From Rhodothermales bacterium (GTDB lineage Bacteria; Bacteroidota; Rhodothermia; Rhodothermales; JANQRZ01): 64,000 nucleotides of DNA. Numbering within the stretch: position 1 is the stretch's first letter; every line of letters begins with the position of its first letter. Position numbers and translations under genes: made by a program. The stretch covers positions 1-64,000 of the forward strand of contig JBDUXZ010000002.1 in NCBI GenBank assembly GCA_039944855.1. Reading direction: 5' to 3'. Shown piece by piece: positions 33,488 to 39,813 of the stretch. Below the pieces are notes generated by a model. That model saw nothing but the letters and a program-made list of their open reading frames with translations, was not told the origin of the DNA and searched no databases.

Positions 33488-33556
33488 GGGTTTGAGGTTC
33501 GAGGTTTGGGGTTATGGGTTCGAGACCCCAAACCCACAACCCCAAACTCACAACTC
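33488..33556. repeat. Imperfect inverted array of GGTTTG words between actA and actB
   Basis: GGGTTTGAGG, TTCGAGG and TTTGGGG words (33488-33524) face complementary CCCCAAACCC and CAACCCCAAAC words (33526-33556). The array fills the gap and ends at the actA stop codon. It is the third member of the family in the respiratory block. Confidence 0.7.
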
Positions 33557-34226
33557 AATAGTGACAGGCGGAGCAGTTTTCCGGCGGGTTGATGCCTTCG
33601 GCCTCGATGCGCGCGAGGTTCGCCGCGAGGTAGGCGCGGTACGACTCGTCGGTCTCGCGGACCTCCTCGGCGTAGCCCATCGCCGTCACGAGCTCGGGGT
33701 CGCGGAGGTGCTCCTCGGGCGCGCGGTGGCACTCGAGGCACCACGCCATCGACATCGGACTGACCTGGTAGACGACGGGCATCTGGTCGATCCGCCCGTG
33801 GCAGCTCTCACACCCGACGCCGACGGCGACGTGGTTGGCGTGCGGGAAGCGGGCGTAGTCGGCGAGGTGGTTCACCTGCACCCACTCGATGGGCTCGCCC
33901 GTGGCCCAGCTCTCGCGGACGGGCAGGAGGGCGAGCGACTCCGACTTGATCTGCGCGTGGCAGTTCATGCACGTCTGCGTCGGCGGGATGTTGGCGTGGG
34001 GCGACTGCTCGACGGCGCTGTGGCAGTAGCGGCAGTCCATCCCGAGCTGGCCGGCGTGCAGCGCGTGGCTGTACGGCACGGGCTGCGTGGGCTGGTAGCC
34101 GACCTCGTAGAACTCGGGCGAGAAGTAGTACCAGATCAGGCCGATGAGGAGGACGCCGCCGCCGAGCGCTCCGAAGAGCGAGAGCGCCGGGTACGTGTTT
34201 GCCTTGCGGGGGAAGAGTTGGGCCAT
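33555..34226 (-). CDS. actA: ACIII subunit ActA (penta-haem cytochrome c)
   Basis: A 223-residue penta-haem cytochrome c, the first gene of the ACIII operon. One N-terminal membrane helix (about residues 15-33) anchors it. Five CxxCH motifs follow: CRYCH, CMNCH, CESCH, CLECH and CSACH, the last only one residue from the C-terminus. ActA takes electrons from the iron-sulfur clusters of ActB and delivers them to ActE or cytochrome c. A promoter and the 22-bp palindrome lie about 165 bp upstream. Confidence 0.96.
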   Translation of the reverse strand: MAQLFPRKANTYPALSLFGALGGGVLLIGLIWYYFSPEFYEVGYQPTQPVPYSHALHAGQLGMDCRYCHSAVEQSPHANIPPTQTCMNCHAQIKSESLALLPVRESWATGEPIEWVQVNHLADYARFPHANHVAVGVGCESCHGRIDQMPVVYQVSPMSMAWCLECHRAPEEHLRDPELVTAMGYAEEVRETDESYRAYLAANLARIEAEGINPPENCSACHY

Positions 34227-34391
34227 CAGACGCGATGCTTCGGGTGAGCTTCGGGAGCCGGAGGAAGGGGGGCGAGCCGGCAGCAGACGAAGGTAGAAGG
34301 GGATGCGGGAACCCGCATTGAAGATACTTAGAAAAGCCTTTTCACGCGGGCACGAAAGGCCGAACTCTGAGCGCGGCAGTCGGCGCGGCCT

Positions 34392-34428
34392 GCTTTCAAA
34401 TAATAATGAAAGCCTTCGCTCTGGCCAA
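34392..34428 (-). promoter_or_regulatory. Promoter and 22-bp palindromic operator of the act operon
   Basis: On the minus strand TTG (34428-34426), 20 nt, then TATTATTTG (34405-34397) matches the Bacteroidota -33/-7 pattern. Overlapping the -7 region is a perfect inverted repeat: GCTTTCA, 8 nt, TGAAAGC (34392-34413). The same element precedes the SCO-caa3 unit at 25842-25863. A 5' leader of roughly 160 nt would follow; no clear structure was seen in it. Confidence 0.6.
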
Positions 34429-34457
34429 CCCCTTGGTCGGGCGATGCCCGAGCCGCC

Positions 34458-34546
34458 CTACGCCACCCGCTCGCCCACTCGCTCTGGCACGGCGAAGTCC
34501 TGCCGCATCCGCCGGCGGAACCACAACGTCAGCCCCACCGCCGCCG
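34458..34546 (-). pseudogene. Relic duplicate of the MATE gene 3' end
   Basis: These 89 bp match the last 89 bp of the intact MATE gene (36175-36263) at 83 positions. Reading in the same frame gives the same last residues (QDFAVPERVGERVA) and still ends at a stop, TAG here and TGA in the intact gene. Of the coding differences, three are silent and one changes Trp to Arg. The match breaks abruptly at 34546, ten bases before the stop codon of the FG-GAP-like gene. So the FG-GAP-like gene is bracketed by two copies of this tail. Confidence 0.88.
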
Positions 34547-34555
34547 GCTTTGGCG

Positions 34556-36115
34556 TTACCTCACCACCGTGATCCGCTGGCTGAATCGCTGGCCGCCCAC
34601 CTCAGCGCGCACGAGGTACACGCCAGTCGGCAACGCTCTCCCATCAAGTATGAACACCTGGCGCCCTGCTTCCACACGGCCATCCGCAAGCATGGCGACC
34701 CTGCGACCGAGGACATCATAGGCATCGATCCGCACGTGCGTCGCGCGAGGTAAGCGGAGTTGCAGCGTAACCGGACCGCCCGCCGCCGGGTTCGGGTACG
34801 CGGTGAGCTCTGCGCTGTCTGCGCCAGCGACCGGCTCGGACTCGGCAGGCACTGCACGGCGGAGGTCCCAGACGTAGCCCGCCCCCCGCCCATCGTCGTT
34901 GTTGGGGGCGCCCGCCACCGCGTAGCGGCCCGACGCCCCGACGGAGTAGCCGATCTGGTCGCCCGGCGTGCGGTCGCTCGCCCACAACTCAGCCTCTTCG
35001 GTCCACAAGGGCACGCCCCCTTCAGATGTGCGGCGAAAGAGTCGGACGGTCCCGGCGAAGTTGTAGGCGCGGTCCCCGCCGAGCACCGCTACGGTGCCCC
35101 CGATATTCGGCGCAGCGGCGAGGGCAACTGACCACCCGAGACCCTGTGCTTTGCTACCATTTGCAGCAATGAGCTTCTTCTCGAAGACCCATGCGTTGTC
35201 GCCTTCGCGGCGGAAGACGTATCCGGCACCCACAGACAACATCCCGTTGATGTCTTGACTGGTCGCGCCGGCGAGGGCGAGGATCTCGCCGTCGGGAGTC
35301 TCTACGAGCGCGACGCCGAGCCCGAAAAGATCACCGACGTTGGCATCGGGGGCGACGAGTTTGGCTTCCTCGACCCAAGTGCCCTCGGGGGTTCGGCGGA
35401 AGGCGTAGGCGGCACCCCGCTGGTCGCTGTCGCTCGGTGCACCGATGAGCGCAAAGGGCACGCCGTCGCTGGATACGACTATTGACACTCCACGCCCGAA
35501 CCCCGCTTTCACACTGGCATCGGAGGCCAGAAGGCGCGCTTCCTCGACCCACATGCCGTCGGTTGTGCGTCGGAAGGCGTAGGCGGCACCGGTGGTGCCG
35601 CCTGCATCGTCGGCTCCGACCGCTCCCACCACAGCGTAATCCCCATGAATCGCCACTGCATGCCCGAAGGACTCATGTATATCTGCCCCGTTCGTAAGCC
35701 GCGCCTCTTGAACCCACTCAGCATCGACGGATCGCCGGAAGATGTAGGCCGCATCGGTCTCAGGGCGAAAAGAGTCACCACGCGCCCCGGCAATAACCAC
35801 GTCTTCTCTGCTGTCGCTCCACGCACCGACAGCCATGCCGAAGGTGAAGAAGCTCTGCTGCGAGGCGTTGAGCCGGGTCTCCTCTTCCCATCCGCCCGCC
35901 GTCTCGCGGAAGACGTAGGCCGCACCGGTCGTTGGGGCGGAGTCGTCGCGGAAGGCCCCGAGGACGACGAAGCCGTCGGCGGCGGCAATTGCCCAGCCAG
36001 CCGTGGCGAATGCATCCGCACTGGAACCAACGAGCTTCGCATTCTCGGTGATGACAGGCTGCGCCCACGCTGGCAATCCCAAAAGGAGGGCGACTAACAG
36101 CAGGAGGAGACGCAT
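34556..36115 (-). CDS. Secreted FG-GAP-like repeat protein with T9SS sorting domain
   Basis: A 519-residue exported protein. A signal peptide (residues 1-18, ending AWAQ) is followed by about six to seven repeats of roughly 55 residues. Each has a GAAYVFRR strand, a WVEEARL strand and a FGxxVA strand, as in integrin-like FG-GAP propellers. Residues about 430-519 are a T9SS tail: TAYPNPAAGGPVTLQLRL, then RIDAYDVLGRRVAMLADG, then PTGVYLVRAEV. It is bracketed by the MATE tail duplicates, so it was probably inserted here. Base composition is a little less GC-biased than its neighbours. The cargo function, probably adhesion or surface structure, is inferred. Confidence 0.86.
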   Translation of the reverse strand: MRLLLLLVALLLGLPAWAQPVITENAKLVGSSADAFATAGWAIAAADGFVVLGAFRDDSAPTTGAAYVFRETAGGWEEETRLNASQQSFFTFGMAVGAWSDSREDVVIAGARGDSFRPETDAAYIFRRSVDAEWVQEARLTNGADIHESFGHAVAIHGDYAVVGAVGADDAGGTTGAAYAFRRTTDGMWVEEARLLASDASVKAGFGRGVSIVVSSDGVPFALIGAPSDSDQRGAAYAFRRTPEGTWVEEAKLVAPDANVGDLFGLGVALVETPDGEILALAGATSQDINGMLSVGAGYVFRREGDNAWVFEKKLIAANGSKAQGLGWSVALAAAPNIGGTVAVLGGDRAYNFAGTVRLFRRTSEGGVPLWTEEAELWASDRTPGDQIGYSVGASGRYAVAGAPNNDDGRGAGYVWDLRRAVPAESEPVAGADSAELTAYPNPAAGGPVTLQLRLPRATHVRIDAYDVLGRRVAMLADGRVEAGRQVFILDGRALPTGVYLVRAEVGGQRFSQRITVVR

Positions 36116-36174
36116 AGCGATGTGACCAGGGTGGGTGATACCAGCAACGTAAGGATTTTTACGCCGCCGTGCCT

Positions 36175-37563
36175 TCACGCTACCCGCTCGCCCACTCGCT
36201 CCGGCACGGCGAAGTCCTGCCGCATCCGCCAGCGGAACCACAGCGTCAGCCCCACCGCCGCCGCGCCGAGCCCGAGCGTCAACCCCCACCACACGCCCTC
36301 CGCCCCGAGGTCCACGACGAAGCCGAGCACGACGGCCGTCGTCATCCCTATGCCCCAGTACGCCACGACGCCGACGATCATCGGCGCGCGCGTGTCTTTG
36401 ATGCCGCGCAGCGCGCCGGACGCCGTCGCCTGCACGCCGTCGACGAGCTGGAAGACGGCGGCGATGCCGAGCAGCCCGGCCGCCGCGCGCGCCACGTCGA
36501 GGTCGGCCCCGGTCACGTCGCCGACGTAGACCCACACGACCCACTCCGGCCGCAGCCAGAACAGGAGGGCCGAGCAGAGCATGAACGCCGCGCCCATCGC
36601 CACGCCCGACCAGCCGGCGCGCTCGGCCCCGGCCCGGTCGCCGCGCCCGGCGGCCTGCCCGACGCGGACCGTCGTCGCCATCGCCACGCCGAGCGGGACC
36701 ATGAACGTGACGCTCGCCGCGTTGATCGCGATCTGGTGCGCGGCGAGCGCCGCCGTCCCGAGCAGCCCGATGAGCAATGTTGTCGTGGCGAAGAGCCCGG
36801 CTTCGAGCCCGAAGCTGACGCCGATGGGCCAGCCGAGCTGAAAGAGCGTGCGGAGCGCCTCGGGGTCCGGCCGCCGGAGATGACGCAGGTCCGCGAGCCG
36901 GCGGAACGCGCGGTCCCCCTGCACCACGGCGAGGAGGCCGCCGAAGAGCACCGTCATCACGATCGCCGAGCTCCACCCGGCCCCGACGAGCCCGAGCGCC
37001 GGGAAGCCGAACTTCCCGAACATCAGCACCCAGTTCAGCCCCGCGTTCGCGAACGCCGCGACGACGGTGACGACGAGGATCGGGCGCGGGCGGCCGAGCC
37101 CTTCGGCGAAGCCGCGGAGCGCGGTGTACCACAGGTTCGGGAGGACGCCCCAGAGGATCGCGTGGATGTACGCGGCGGCGAGCGCGGCCGTCGCCGGGGC
37201 CTGCCCGGCCCAGAGGAGCAGCGTCTCGGCCTGGCTCAGGAGGGCCATGAGGGGGAGGCCGAGGAGCGTCGCCAGCCACAGCCCTTGCCGGACGGCGCGG
37301 CCTACCGCCGCCTCGTCGCCCGCGCCGACGGCCTGCGCGACGAGCGGGTTCACGGCCATCACCACGCCCATGCACACGAGCGAGAGCGAGAAGAACACCG
37401 ACGTGCCGATGACGCCCGCCGCCATCGCCTCCGGCCCGATCCGCCCGATCATGATGACGTCGACGAAGCCCATCGCCATCTGCGTGAGCTGCGTGAGCGC
37501 GAGGGGGACGGCGAGCACAAGCGTGGCGCGGAGCTCGCGGCGGAGGATCGGAAACGGTAACAC
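36175..37563 (-). CDS. MATE family efflux transporter (NorM-like)
   Basis: A 462-residue inner-membrane antiporter with 12 helices in two homologous halves. Typical N-terminal features: LALTQLTQMAMGFVDVIMIGRIGPEAMAA (in parts), followed by GVVMAVNPLVAQAVGAGDEAAVGRAVRQGL. The second half contains EAGLFATTTLLIGLLGTAALAAHQIAIN and DGVQATASGALRGIKDTRAPM. MATE proteins export cationic compounds in exchange for Na+ or H+. The ATG at 37563 begins the N-terminal segment. The gene's 3' end is duplicated at 34458-34546. It is divergent from the histidine kinase at 37711. Confidence 0.93.
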   Translation of the reverse strand: MLPFPILRRELRATLVLAVPLALTQLTQMAMGFVDVIMIGRIGPEAMAAGVIGTSVFFSLSLVCMGVVMAVNPLVAQAVGAGDEAAVGRAVRQGLWLATLLGLPLMALLSQAETLLLWAGQAPATAALAAAYIHAILWGVLPNLWYTALRGFAEGLGRPRPILVVTVVAAFANAGLNWVLMFGKFGFPALGLVGAGWSSAIVMTVLFGGLLAVVQGDRAFRRLADLRHLRRPDPEALRTLFQLGWPIGVSFGLEAGLFATTTLLIGLLGTAALAAHQIAINAASVTFMVPLGVAMATTVRVGQAAGRGDRAGAERAGWSGVAMGAAFMLCSALLFWLRPEWVVWVYVGDVTGADLDVARAAAGLLGIAAVFQLVDGVQATASGALRGIKDTRAPMIVGVVAYWGIGMTTAVVLGFVVDLGAEGVWWGLTLGLGAAAVGLTLWFRWRMRQDFAVPERVGERVA

Positions 37564-37710: not shown

Positions 37711-39813
37711 ATGCCCTCCCTCCTCCCCGCGCTCCGAGATGGCGCGGAGCCCGACATGGAGCTCCGCGCCTACCGGGTGGTGTGCGTGCTGACGGCAGCC
37801 TTGCTCCCCGTCTTCGGCTACGTCTACCGCTGGGTAGACCCGGCGTTCTATGACCCGCTCTGGATGCGCTGGAGCCTCAGCGCCCTCTCCCTCGCGCTCG
37901 GCGTCGGTACGGTCGTCGCCCCGTGGGTGCGGCGGCACATCGAGACGCTGGGGTGCTTGTTCGTCTACGTCATCGTAGGGTGGTTCGCCGCGATTGCGGC
38001 GGTGAACGGCCTCGCGCCGGAGTACGCCGTCGGCTACCTCCTCGTCCTGATGATGATCGGCGTGGCAAACCTCGGCATCGACCTGCTGCGGGTGACGGTG
38101 CTCTGCGTGGTCTTCGCCGTCGCGGCGGGCGCGGCGGTGGCGTTCGCGCTGCCGAACCCCGGCGTGGACCCGTGGATCTTCACCGCCTGCGTGGCGGCCG
38201 GCGGCGTCGCCATCTCCGTCAGCACGTGGGTCCGGCTAGGTATCCGCCGGCACCTCCGCACCAGCGAGGCCCGCTACCGGACCGTGTTCGAGAGCACGAC
38301 GGACGGGATCGCCCTCGTCGACGCCGCGTCGCTCACCTTCCTCCACGCGAACGAGGCGTACCTCACGCTGACGGGCTACACCCTCGACGAACTCCGAGAG
38401 CGCACGCTCTACGCCGCCACCGTGGGCGGCCGACTCGCCGTGGACGCGCTTGTGCGGGAGGTGGAGCAGCACGGCTCCCTTACCGGCCGCGAGCAGCAGC
38501 ACCGGCGCAAGGACGGCCCGCCCATCCCTCTCGAAATCGGCCTCAACCGCATCGATGAGGGCGAGGTGCCGGTCCTCTGCCTCACGGCCCACGACCTCAC
38601 CGAGCAGCGGCGCATCCGGGACGAGCTCAAGGCCTCGAAGGACCGCGCCGAGGAGGTGCTCCGGCTCAAGAGCTCGTTCCTCCAGAACATGAGCCACGAA
38701 CTCCGCACCCCGCTCGTGAGCATCCTTGGCTTCGCCGAACTCCTCGCCGAGGAGCCCGACGACGGCGTGCGCGAGATGGGCGCGACGATCTACCGCAGCG
38801 CCCAGCGCCTCCATGACACGATGAACTCCGTGCTCGACCTCGCCCAGCTCGAAGGCAACGGCGTGGCGTACCAGCCCGAGGCGGTCAACGTCGGGGCCGA
38901 GGCGGAGCGCATCGCCCAGCCGTTCCGCGCCGCGGCCGAGGCGAAGGGCCTCGCGCTCCGCGTGAAGCTCATCCCCGACGCCGAAGCGCTCGTCGACCGG
39001 GCCGCCTTCGGGCGCATCCTCTCGGTCCTCCTCTCGAACGCCGTCAAGTTCACCCAGGACGGCGGCATCGGGCTCGATGTGGAGGCCGACTCCCACCGCG
39101 TCGTCGTCCGCGTCAGCGATACCGGCGTCGGCATCAGCGAGGACTTCCTGCCCCACCTCTTCGACGAGTTCCAGCAGGAGTCCACGGGGATGGGCCGGAG
39201 CTACGACGGCAACGGGCTCGGCCTCGCTATCACGAAGCGGCTCGTCGACATGATGGGAGGGCGGATCATGGTGAAGAGCGTCGTCGGCGAGGGCACCGTC
39301 TTCGCCGTGGCGTTCGGCCGATCGTGGACCGGGCCGCCGTCGGGCGACGGGCTGCCGGCCGGCGCGGGCGCGACGTCGGTGCTCACCGCGCGCCCGCGCG
39401 TCCTCGTCGTCGAAGACAACGCCGACACGCGGCGGCTCGTCGAGCGGACGATTGCCGAGTACTACGACGTCGAGACCGCGGCCGACGCTGAGACGGCCCT
39501 CGCCCTCGCGCAGCACGCCTGGTTCGACCTCCTGCTGCTCGACGTCAACCTCGGCCCCGGCCCCGGCGGCGTCGACCTCCTCCGCTCGCTGCGCGCGATC
39601 CCGGCCTACGCCTACGTCCCGGCCCTCGCCGTCACGGCCTACGCCCTCCCCGGCGACCACCGCCGCCTCCTCGAAGCCGGGTTCAGCGGGTACCTGTCCA
39701 AGCCGTTCACGCGCGACGAGCTGCTCTACGCGCTCGACGGTGTGTTCGCGGGGCCGTCCGACACGCTCGCGGGCGACGGTTTCGGTGACGTGGGCATGAC
39801 TGCTCGCCCCTGA
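37711..39813 (+). CDS. Membrane-bound hybrid sensor histidine kinase
   Basis: A 700-residue hybrid sensor kinase. Six hydrophobic segments (about residues 20-180) form the membrane sensor. A PAS domain follows (about 190-300: YRTVFESTTDGIALVDAASLTFLHANEAYLTLTGY in parts). The dimerisation domain has His329 in QNMSHELRTPLVSILGF. The ATPase domain runs to about residue 540 (LSNAVKFTQDGG, VRVSDTGVGIS, GNGLGLAITKRLVDMMGG). A receiver domain closes it (about 563-690), with phospho-acceptor D611 in FDLLLLDVNLG and a Lys in LSKPFTRDEL. The signal and the downstream partner are unknown; no separate response regulator is adjacent. Confidence 0.94.
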   Translation: MPSLLPALRDGAEPDMELRAYRVVCVLTAALLPVFGYVYRWVDPAFYDPLWMRWSLSALSLALGVGTVVAPWVRRHIETLGCLFVYVIVGWFAAIAAVNGLAPEYAVGYLLVLMMIGVANLGIDLLRVTVLCVVFAVAAGAAVAFALPNPGVDPWIFTACVAAGGVAISVSTWVRLGIRRHLRTSEARYRTVFESTTDGIALVDAASLTFLHANEAYLTLTGYTLDELRERTLYAATVGGRLAVDALVREVEQHGSLTGREQQHRRKDGPPIPLEIGLNRIDEGEVPVLCLTAHDLTEQRRIRDELKASKDRAEEVLRLKSSFLQNMSHELRTPLVSILGFAELLAEEPDDGVREMGATIYRSAQRLHDTMNSVLDLAQLEGNGVAYQPEAVNVGAEAERIAQPFRAAAEAKGLALRVKLIPDAEALVDRAAFGRILSVLLSNAVKFTQDGGIGLDVEADSHRVVVRVSDTGVGISEDFLPHLFDEFQQESTGMGRSYDGNGLGLAITKRLVDMMGGRIMVKSVVGEGTVFAVAFGRSWTGPPSGDGLPAGAGATSVLTARPRVLVVEDNADTRRLVERTIAEYYDVETAADAETALALAQHAWFDLLLLDVNLGPGPGGVDLLRSLRAIPAYAYVPALAVTAYALPGDHRRLLEAGFSGYLSKPFTRDELLYALDGVFAGPSDTLAGDGFGDVGMTARP

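Follow-up and report, generated by a model that had tools for sequence, protein, structure and literature searches.

In a Rhodothermales genome, the gene for a secreted FG-GAP repeat protein stands between an intact MATE efflux gene and an actA-like cytochrome gene as an insertion relative to related genomes, and on its far side lies a displaced copy of the MATE gene's 3' end. The first-pass annotation had treated this locus as a single case and suggested a search for others beside duplicated 3' gene ends in the same genome; such others were found, and the locus is one member of a recurrent class of at least a dozen small cassettes behind housekeeping genes in this Rhodothermales family. We judge it, on balance, rather probable that the FG-GAP gene is a horizontally acquired cassette that entered at the MATE stop codon by homologous (RecA-type single-crossover) recombination of a gene 3' end together with its cargo.

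Structure of the MATE–actA locus

The window, that is, the whole stretch of 64,000 nucleotides that was analysed, carries all parts of the locus on its minus strand: the target, an intact MATE efflux gene (36175..37563; PF01554, E=3.2e-60), whose orthologues in two genomes of the same family (G001 and G002) are 78% identical; the proximal tail, which is the last 89 bp of that gene including its stop TGA (36175..36263); a 59-bp spacer of 56% G+C from the MATE stop to the FG-GAP start (36116..36174); the cargo gene (34556..36115); a 9-bp spacer from the cargo stop TAA to the distal tail (34547..34555); the distal tail, a displaced copy of the MATE 3' end (34458..34546); the native MATE–actA intergenic region (34227..34457) with an actA-leader stretch that is conserved in relatives (CTTTTCTAAGTATCTTCAATGC); and the actA-like multihaem cytochrome gene (33555..34226). 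No tRNA gene was found at the MATE locus. The sensor kinase adjoining MATE (window 37711-39813) shares 47-49% identity with the kinase at the syntenic position in the sister genus, against 82-84% for the gene beyond it, which points to fast evolution or replacement of the kinase.

The two tails form a direct repeat in the same orientation (34458-34546 vs 36175-36263) with 83 of 89 positions identical, exactly as the first-pass annotation had described it, and a self-BLAST of the whole window (repeats of at least 45 bp and at least 80% identity, 300-9000 bp apart) returned this pair as the sole qualifying direct repeat (E=2.7e-33). That annotation was likewise correct that the distal tail keeps the frame and a stop (TAG, against TGA in MATE itself) and that three of the four codon changes are silent: CTG/TTG, CCG/CCA and GTA/GTG, the fourth being TGG/CGG (W to R).

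The content of the insert is the FG-GAP open reading frame alone. Its 519-aa product carries FG-GAP_2 repeats (PF14312, E=6e-48, 161 bits, over the cut-off), a signal-peptide-like N-terminus and a T9SS C-terminal sorting domain (Por_Secre_tail, PF18962, 27.6 bits vs a cut-off of 27; TIGR04183, 31.8 bits vs a cut-off of 23). Given that its GC3 (0.74) is below that of its neighbours (0.94-0.96) and of the four other FG-GAP genes of the genome (0.79-0.95), the gene looks foreign in origin. In a search of 114 genomes of the order, the best homologue of the protein reached 41% identity over part of its length, so that no close donor emerged; nor was a donor genome found. PADLOC defence models matched neither the FG-GAP protein nor the PIN-like toxin of the dnaE cassette described below, apart from a weak match to AbiEii.

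In five genomes compared (G001 and G002, of the same family but another genus, and G059, G032 and G046, of another family), actA and actB come directly after MATE, and this stretch has no FG-GAP gene. This adjacency, which had been predicted for relatives without the insert, identifies the FG-GAP/T9SS gene as an insertion. The decay of tandem MATE genes, against which the first-pass annotation had set its own reading, is rejected: relatives have one MATE gene at the site. As the stretch conserved upstream of actA lies on the distal side of the cassette, the distal flank is native.

Recurrence of tail-flanked cassettes

A scan for direct repeats anchored on one side by a stop codon, covering 1.64 Mb (contigs C2, C5, C20 and C23 and most of C24; 36% of the genome), yielded eight loci, MATE included, that share one plan: a gene, a small cargo, and a displaced copy of the gene's own tail, 38-123 bp in length. 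Besides MATE (tail of 89 bp, FG-GAP/T9SS gene), the targets, whose names were assigned by reading translations, are a PorV/P-like gene (81 bp; two T9SS genes), a patatin gene (62 bp; an antitoxin-like ORF and a PIN-like reading frame), a DUF819-like transporter (75 bp; a lipoprotein-like ORF), dnaE (123 bp; a PIN-like/antitoxin-like pair whose GTG start overlaps the dnaE stop), a glycerate kinase (68 bp; a SnoaL-like/DUF4440 protein), icd (73 bp; a lipoprotein-like ORF, an antitoxin-like ORF and a frame-shifted PIN toxin) and SAHH (38 bp; a creatininase), the last being the weakest of the eight. REP-like repeats and paralogous tails were set aside from this count. The REP-like repeats, at C5:240466/248766, C20:331774/332580 and C24:3619/5465, are dispersed between genes, measure 66-94 bp, have a hairpin-like core and are unrelated to the tails; one candidate (L011) had a tail-flanked look and was discarded as a terminator hairpin.

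Targeted searches extended the set. A ninth locus, asnS, lies just beyond the scanned part (C24:183976-186083, tail copy C24:186009-186083) with DUF4160 and DUF2442 cargo, and a fumC cassette is present in G002. The scan of 0.4 Mb of G001, a genome of the sister genus, gave three loci (fba, aroC and asnS). The asnS gene of G001 (C16:150147-151697) carries a cargo different from that behind asnS in the window's genome; cassettes thus occur behind asnS in two genera, so that certain genes may act as hot spots. In 0.74 Mb of other bacteria (512 kb of loci and 226 kb of E. coli), no such locus was found apart from the known e14 icd/icdC pair, where about 4 would be expected at the family's rate (P about 0.02, a rough value, the control loci being short).

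The inserts measure 0.4-3.4 kb, and their cargo consists mostly of toxin-antitoxin-like modules, T9SS proteins and lipoproteins; neither integrase nor relaxase nor conjugation genes were seen inside the inserts read, by domain search at MATE and by ORF listing at the other loci. The inserts are compact: at most loci only 3-18 bp separate the cargo stop from the distal tail, and the cargo often starts a few bases past the host stop. One family of PIN-like/antitoxin-like cassettes occurs behind dnaE in the window's genome and behind fumC in G002, each time with the tail of its own host gene. Arrays occur as well: on contig C50 of G002 (658-2328), a gene end is followed by a PIN-like/antitoxin-like pair, a tail copy, a T5orf172 gene and a further tail copy, so that two cassettes are interleaved with three tail copies, all readable in frame and 79-84% identical to each other. 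In G027, whose family is a different one, the 3' end of tRNA-Ala(GGC) occurs nine times, some of the copies lying between T9SS FG-GAP genes (C261:1405, 3335 and 6230; C114:52, 3352 and 4098; C256:5160; and others); the cassette pattern may therefore reach tRNA genes and other families.

Divergence of the tails

Pooled over 11 tail pairs, the codon differences comprise 44 silent and 16 replacement changes, a ratio with P of about 1e-11 to 1e-14 under no constraint, depending on transition bias; at single loci the ratio is 9:1 (dnaE) and 9:0 (aroC). It argues that the two tails diverged in separate lineages, each while serving as a working gene end, and thus bears out the earlier suggestion that the MATE tail copy evolved as functional coding sequence. 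Such separate coding histories indicate that the pairs are not local duplications that drifted apart, a candidate rejected by the pooled ratio, and that one tail of each pair came from another lineage. A transposon target-site duplication, whose copies are identical at the start and neutral afterwards, is rejected by the same ratio (P about 1e-11) and by the aroC tails, which end in two different C-termini. At the PorV/P-like gene, glycerate kinase and fumC, the distal tails are decayed or frameshifted.

Native and foreign tails

The clearest polarity comes from fumC: the site is uninterrupted in G001, while G002, of the same genus, has a PIN-like/antitoxin-like pair followed by a decayed fumC tail, which continues into the native downstream DNA of G001, and its proximal gene end has another stop codon. 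The repeat is weak (40 bp, 82%, E=7e-5), yet exactly placed. The empty site in G001 identifies the distal tail as native and the proximal gene end as the part that came in with the cassette. At icd in the window's genome, the distal tail agrees with both relatives at three of three silent sites and the proximal tail does not. The native tail is thus the displaced one at no fewer than two loci, fumC and icd.

At dnaE and aroC, the proximal copy is native-like in its 5' part and the distal copy in its 3' part. A single crossover within the tail would produce such a switch of identity, whereas a joint at the beginning of a tail that is native throughout would not. MATE offers two polarisable sites; both lie in the 5' part, where the proximal copy has the native state, in agreement with such a crossover. 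Summed over all loci, the polarity is mixed (native state proximal at 41 sites, distal at 22, neither at 19), so that the direction is not proven locus by locus and the tally counts against the single-crossover model. At SAHH and fba, the first 65-280 bp past the proximal stop are conserved in relatives; the interval there is therefore not all cassette.

Discussion

Entry by homologous recombination had been offered in the first-pass annotation as the alternative to an integrative element, and it has become the better fit, notably to the switch between native and foreign identity inside the dnaE and aroC tails. Under this mechanism, DNA from a related organism would bring the 3' end of the target gene followed by cargo; the donor tail would recombine by homology with the tail of the recipient's gene; the target gene would stay whole and take the donor's 3' end; and the native tail would be pushed downstream behind the cargo, where it would decay. 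Its most economical form would be a single crossover by which a circular or circularised molecule, made up of gene tail and cargo, joins the chromosome; the tail would then serve as both address and attachment site without an integrase. Successive entries would lead to serial displacement, as in the array of G002. We infer the RecA-type single crossover, the circular intermediate and present-day mobility. There is an experimental precedent: in E. coli, most suspected events of homology-facilitated illegitimate recombination (HFIR) were duplications of 109-950 bp that arose by single crossover of a circularised molecule (PMC3240628). Against the RecA route, most of the tails (38-123 bp) are short for efficient exchange, although longer ones may be lost by excision. 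The position of cargo stops 3-18 bp before the distal tail is left unexplained by single crossover, HFIR and integrase entry alike.

Integrase-dependent entry is the alternative to which we leave a small but real chance. It holds that the loci are decayed, CIME-like elements: a site-specific tyrosine recombinase, acting in trans or since lost, would have used the gene 3' end as attB, with a restoring 3' end in attP. The geometry of 3'-end integration with the target restored, which the earlier integrative-element reading had emphasised, stands, and it is that of E. coli e14 at icd (icd/icdC tails 153/165 identical), where the incoming 3' end likewise carries mostly silent changes and the native tail is displaced as the pseudogene icdC; icd is a target here too, as is an aldolase gene (fba), and the tRNA-Ala tail array with T9SS genes in G027 points the same way. 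CIMEs are themselves integrase-less and att-flanked, measure 1.2-13 kb, occupy the 3' ends of rpmG, rpsI and fda, and form tandem arrays (PMC7563491); like CIMEs and accretion arrays (PMC7563491, PMC5704250), the loci described here place integrase-less cargo between two copies of a target 3' end and leave the target intact. A classical integrase element, by contrast, is not supported, because there are at least a dozen unrelated target genes, which would need as many integrases, because the inserts are far smaller than most such elements, and because no integrase lies in the inserts read. The first-pass annotation was right about the absence of an integrase: the genome has only ten PF00589 matches, none of them on the 199-kb contig C2. 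Moreover, to yield the switch of native identity seen at dnaE and aroC, integrase-mediated exchange would have to take place far inside the tail. e14 differs in being a 15.2-kb prophage with intE and xisE at one site, and CIMEs differ in that the cassettes here are 0.4-3.4 kb, often hold one gene or a toxin-antitoxin-like pair, and sit behind about a dozen different genes in one family. No parent ICE or IME was seen in the sequence read; integrase genes lie elsewhere in the genome. In structure the loci agree with CIMEs, the nearest named kind, as an integrase-less, gene-sized and probably homology-driven sort with many targets.

We consider HFIR of linear donor DNA unlikely. Here, homologous pairing in the gene on one side would be combined with a microhomology joint of 3-10 bp into the native tail on the other, which explains the one-sided homology, the wholly native distal tails of icd and fumC, and serial displacement. 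A homologous junction on one side is indeed seen, with a foreign proximal gene end on a native gene body at icd, aroC and fumC; the genome has a ComEC homologue; and the model has been proposed for the T6SS immunity arrays of V. cholerae (PMC5361080). Those orphan immunity arrays and the C-terminal displacement of Rhs/CDI proteins resemble the present loci in that an incoming end with cargo displaces the old 3' end and arrays grow by successive events (PMC5361080); there, however, the target (toxin) itself diversifies, whereas the cassettes here sit behind conserved housekeeping genes and carry unrelated cargo. However, HFIR typically deletes DNA of similar size and does not duplicate it (PMC3240628), whereas duplication is observed here; the distal tail should be native throughout, whereas its 5' part looks foreign at aroC and dnaE; and random ends leave the closeness of cargo stops to the tail unexplained.

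We also consider it doubtful that Rhodothermales have a cassette system of their own, in which circles with a host-gene tail as address would insert exactly at stop codons, rebuild the gene end and form arrays, possibly helped by an attC-less integron-type integrase. Such an integrase, a solo one (TIGR02249, over the curated cut-off), is encoded in three of three family genomes: C5:74605-75585 (minus strand) in the window's genome, C2:38046-38993 in G001 and C27:8944-9900 in G002. Integron cassettes proper are compact single-ORF or toxin-antitoxin units with a repeat right behind the cargo stop, as are the cassettes here, but the repeats here are gene tails and not attC: no attC pairs were found within about 15 kb of intI in the window's genome, and the tails showed no attC-like folding (mean z 0.00 and 0.12, equal to random gene ends). 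The loci are therefore rejected as integron cassettes.

A metagenome assembly artefact, in which the shared gene tail served to join contigs from strains with and without the cassette, is very improbable: G001 is a metagenome bin, as the window's genome may be (which counts against our reading), and the tails differ at roughly strain-level divergence, but across three separate assemblies distal tails are frameshifted or decayed at three loci, an array holds three tail copies, and only a few bp separate cargo stops from the tail.

Returning to acquisition by homologous recombination of gene tails, a partial literature search found no paper that describes a class of gene-tail-flanked cassettes. 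Single accessory genes often sit between conserved genes without a visible mobile element. The displaced tail is a datable scar: it marks the entry point, shows the foreign gene end and persists long enough for counting. If the pattern is general, single-gene transfer events could be read directly from one genome through such scars, which would also provide a sequence test between homologous, illegitimate and integrase-mediated entry; and it would explain how toxin-antitoxin modules and secreted proteins settle harmlessly behind essential genes.
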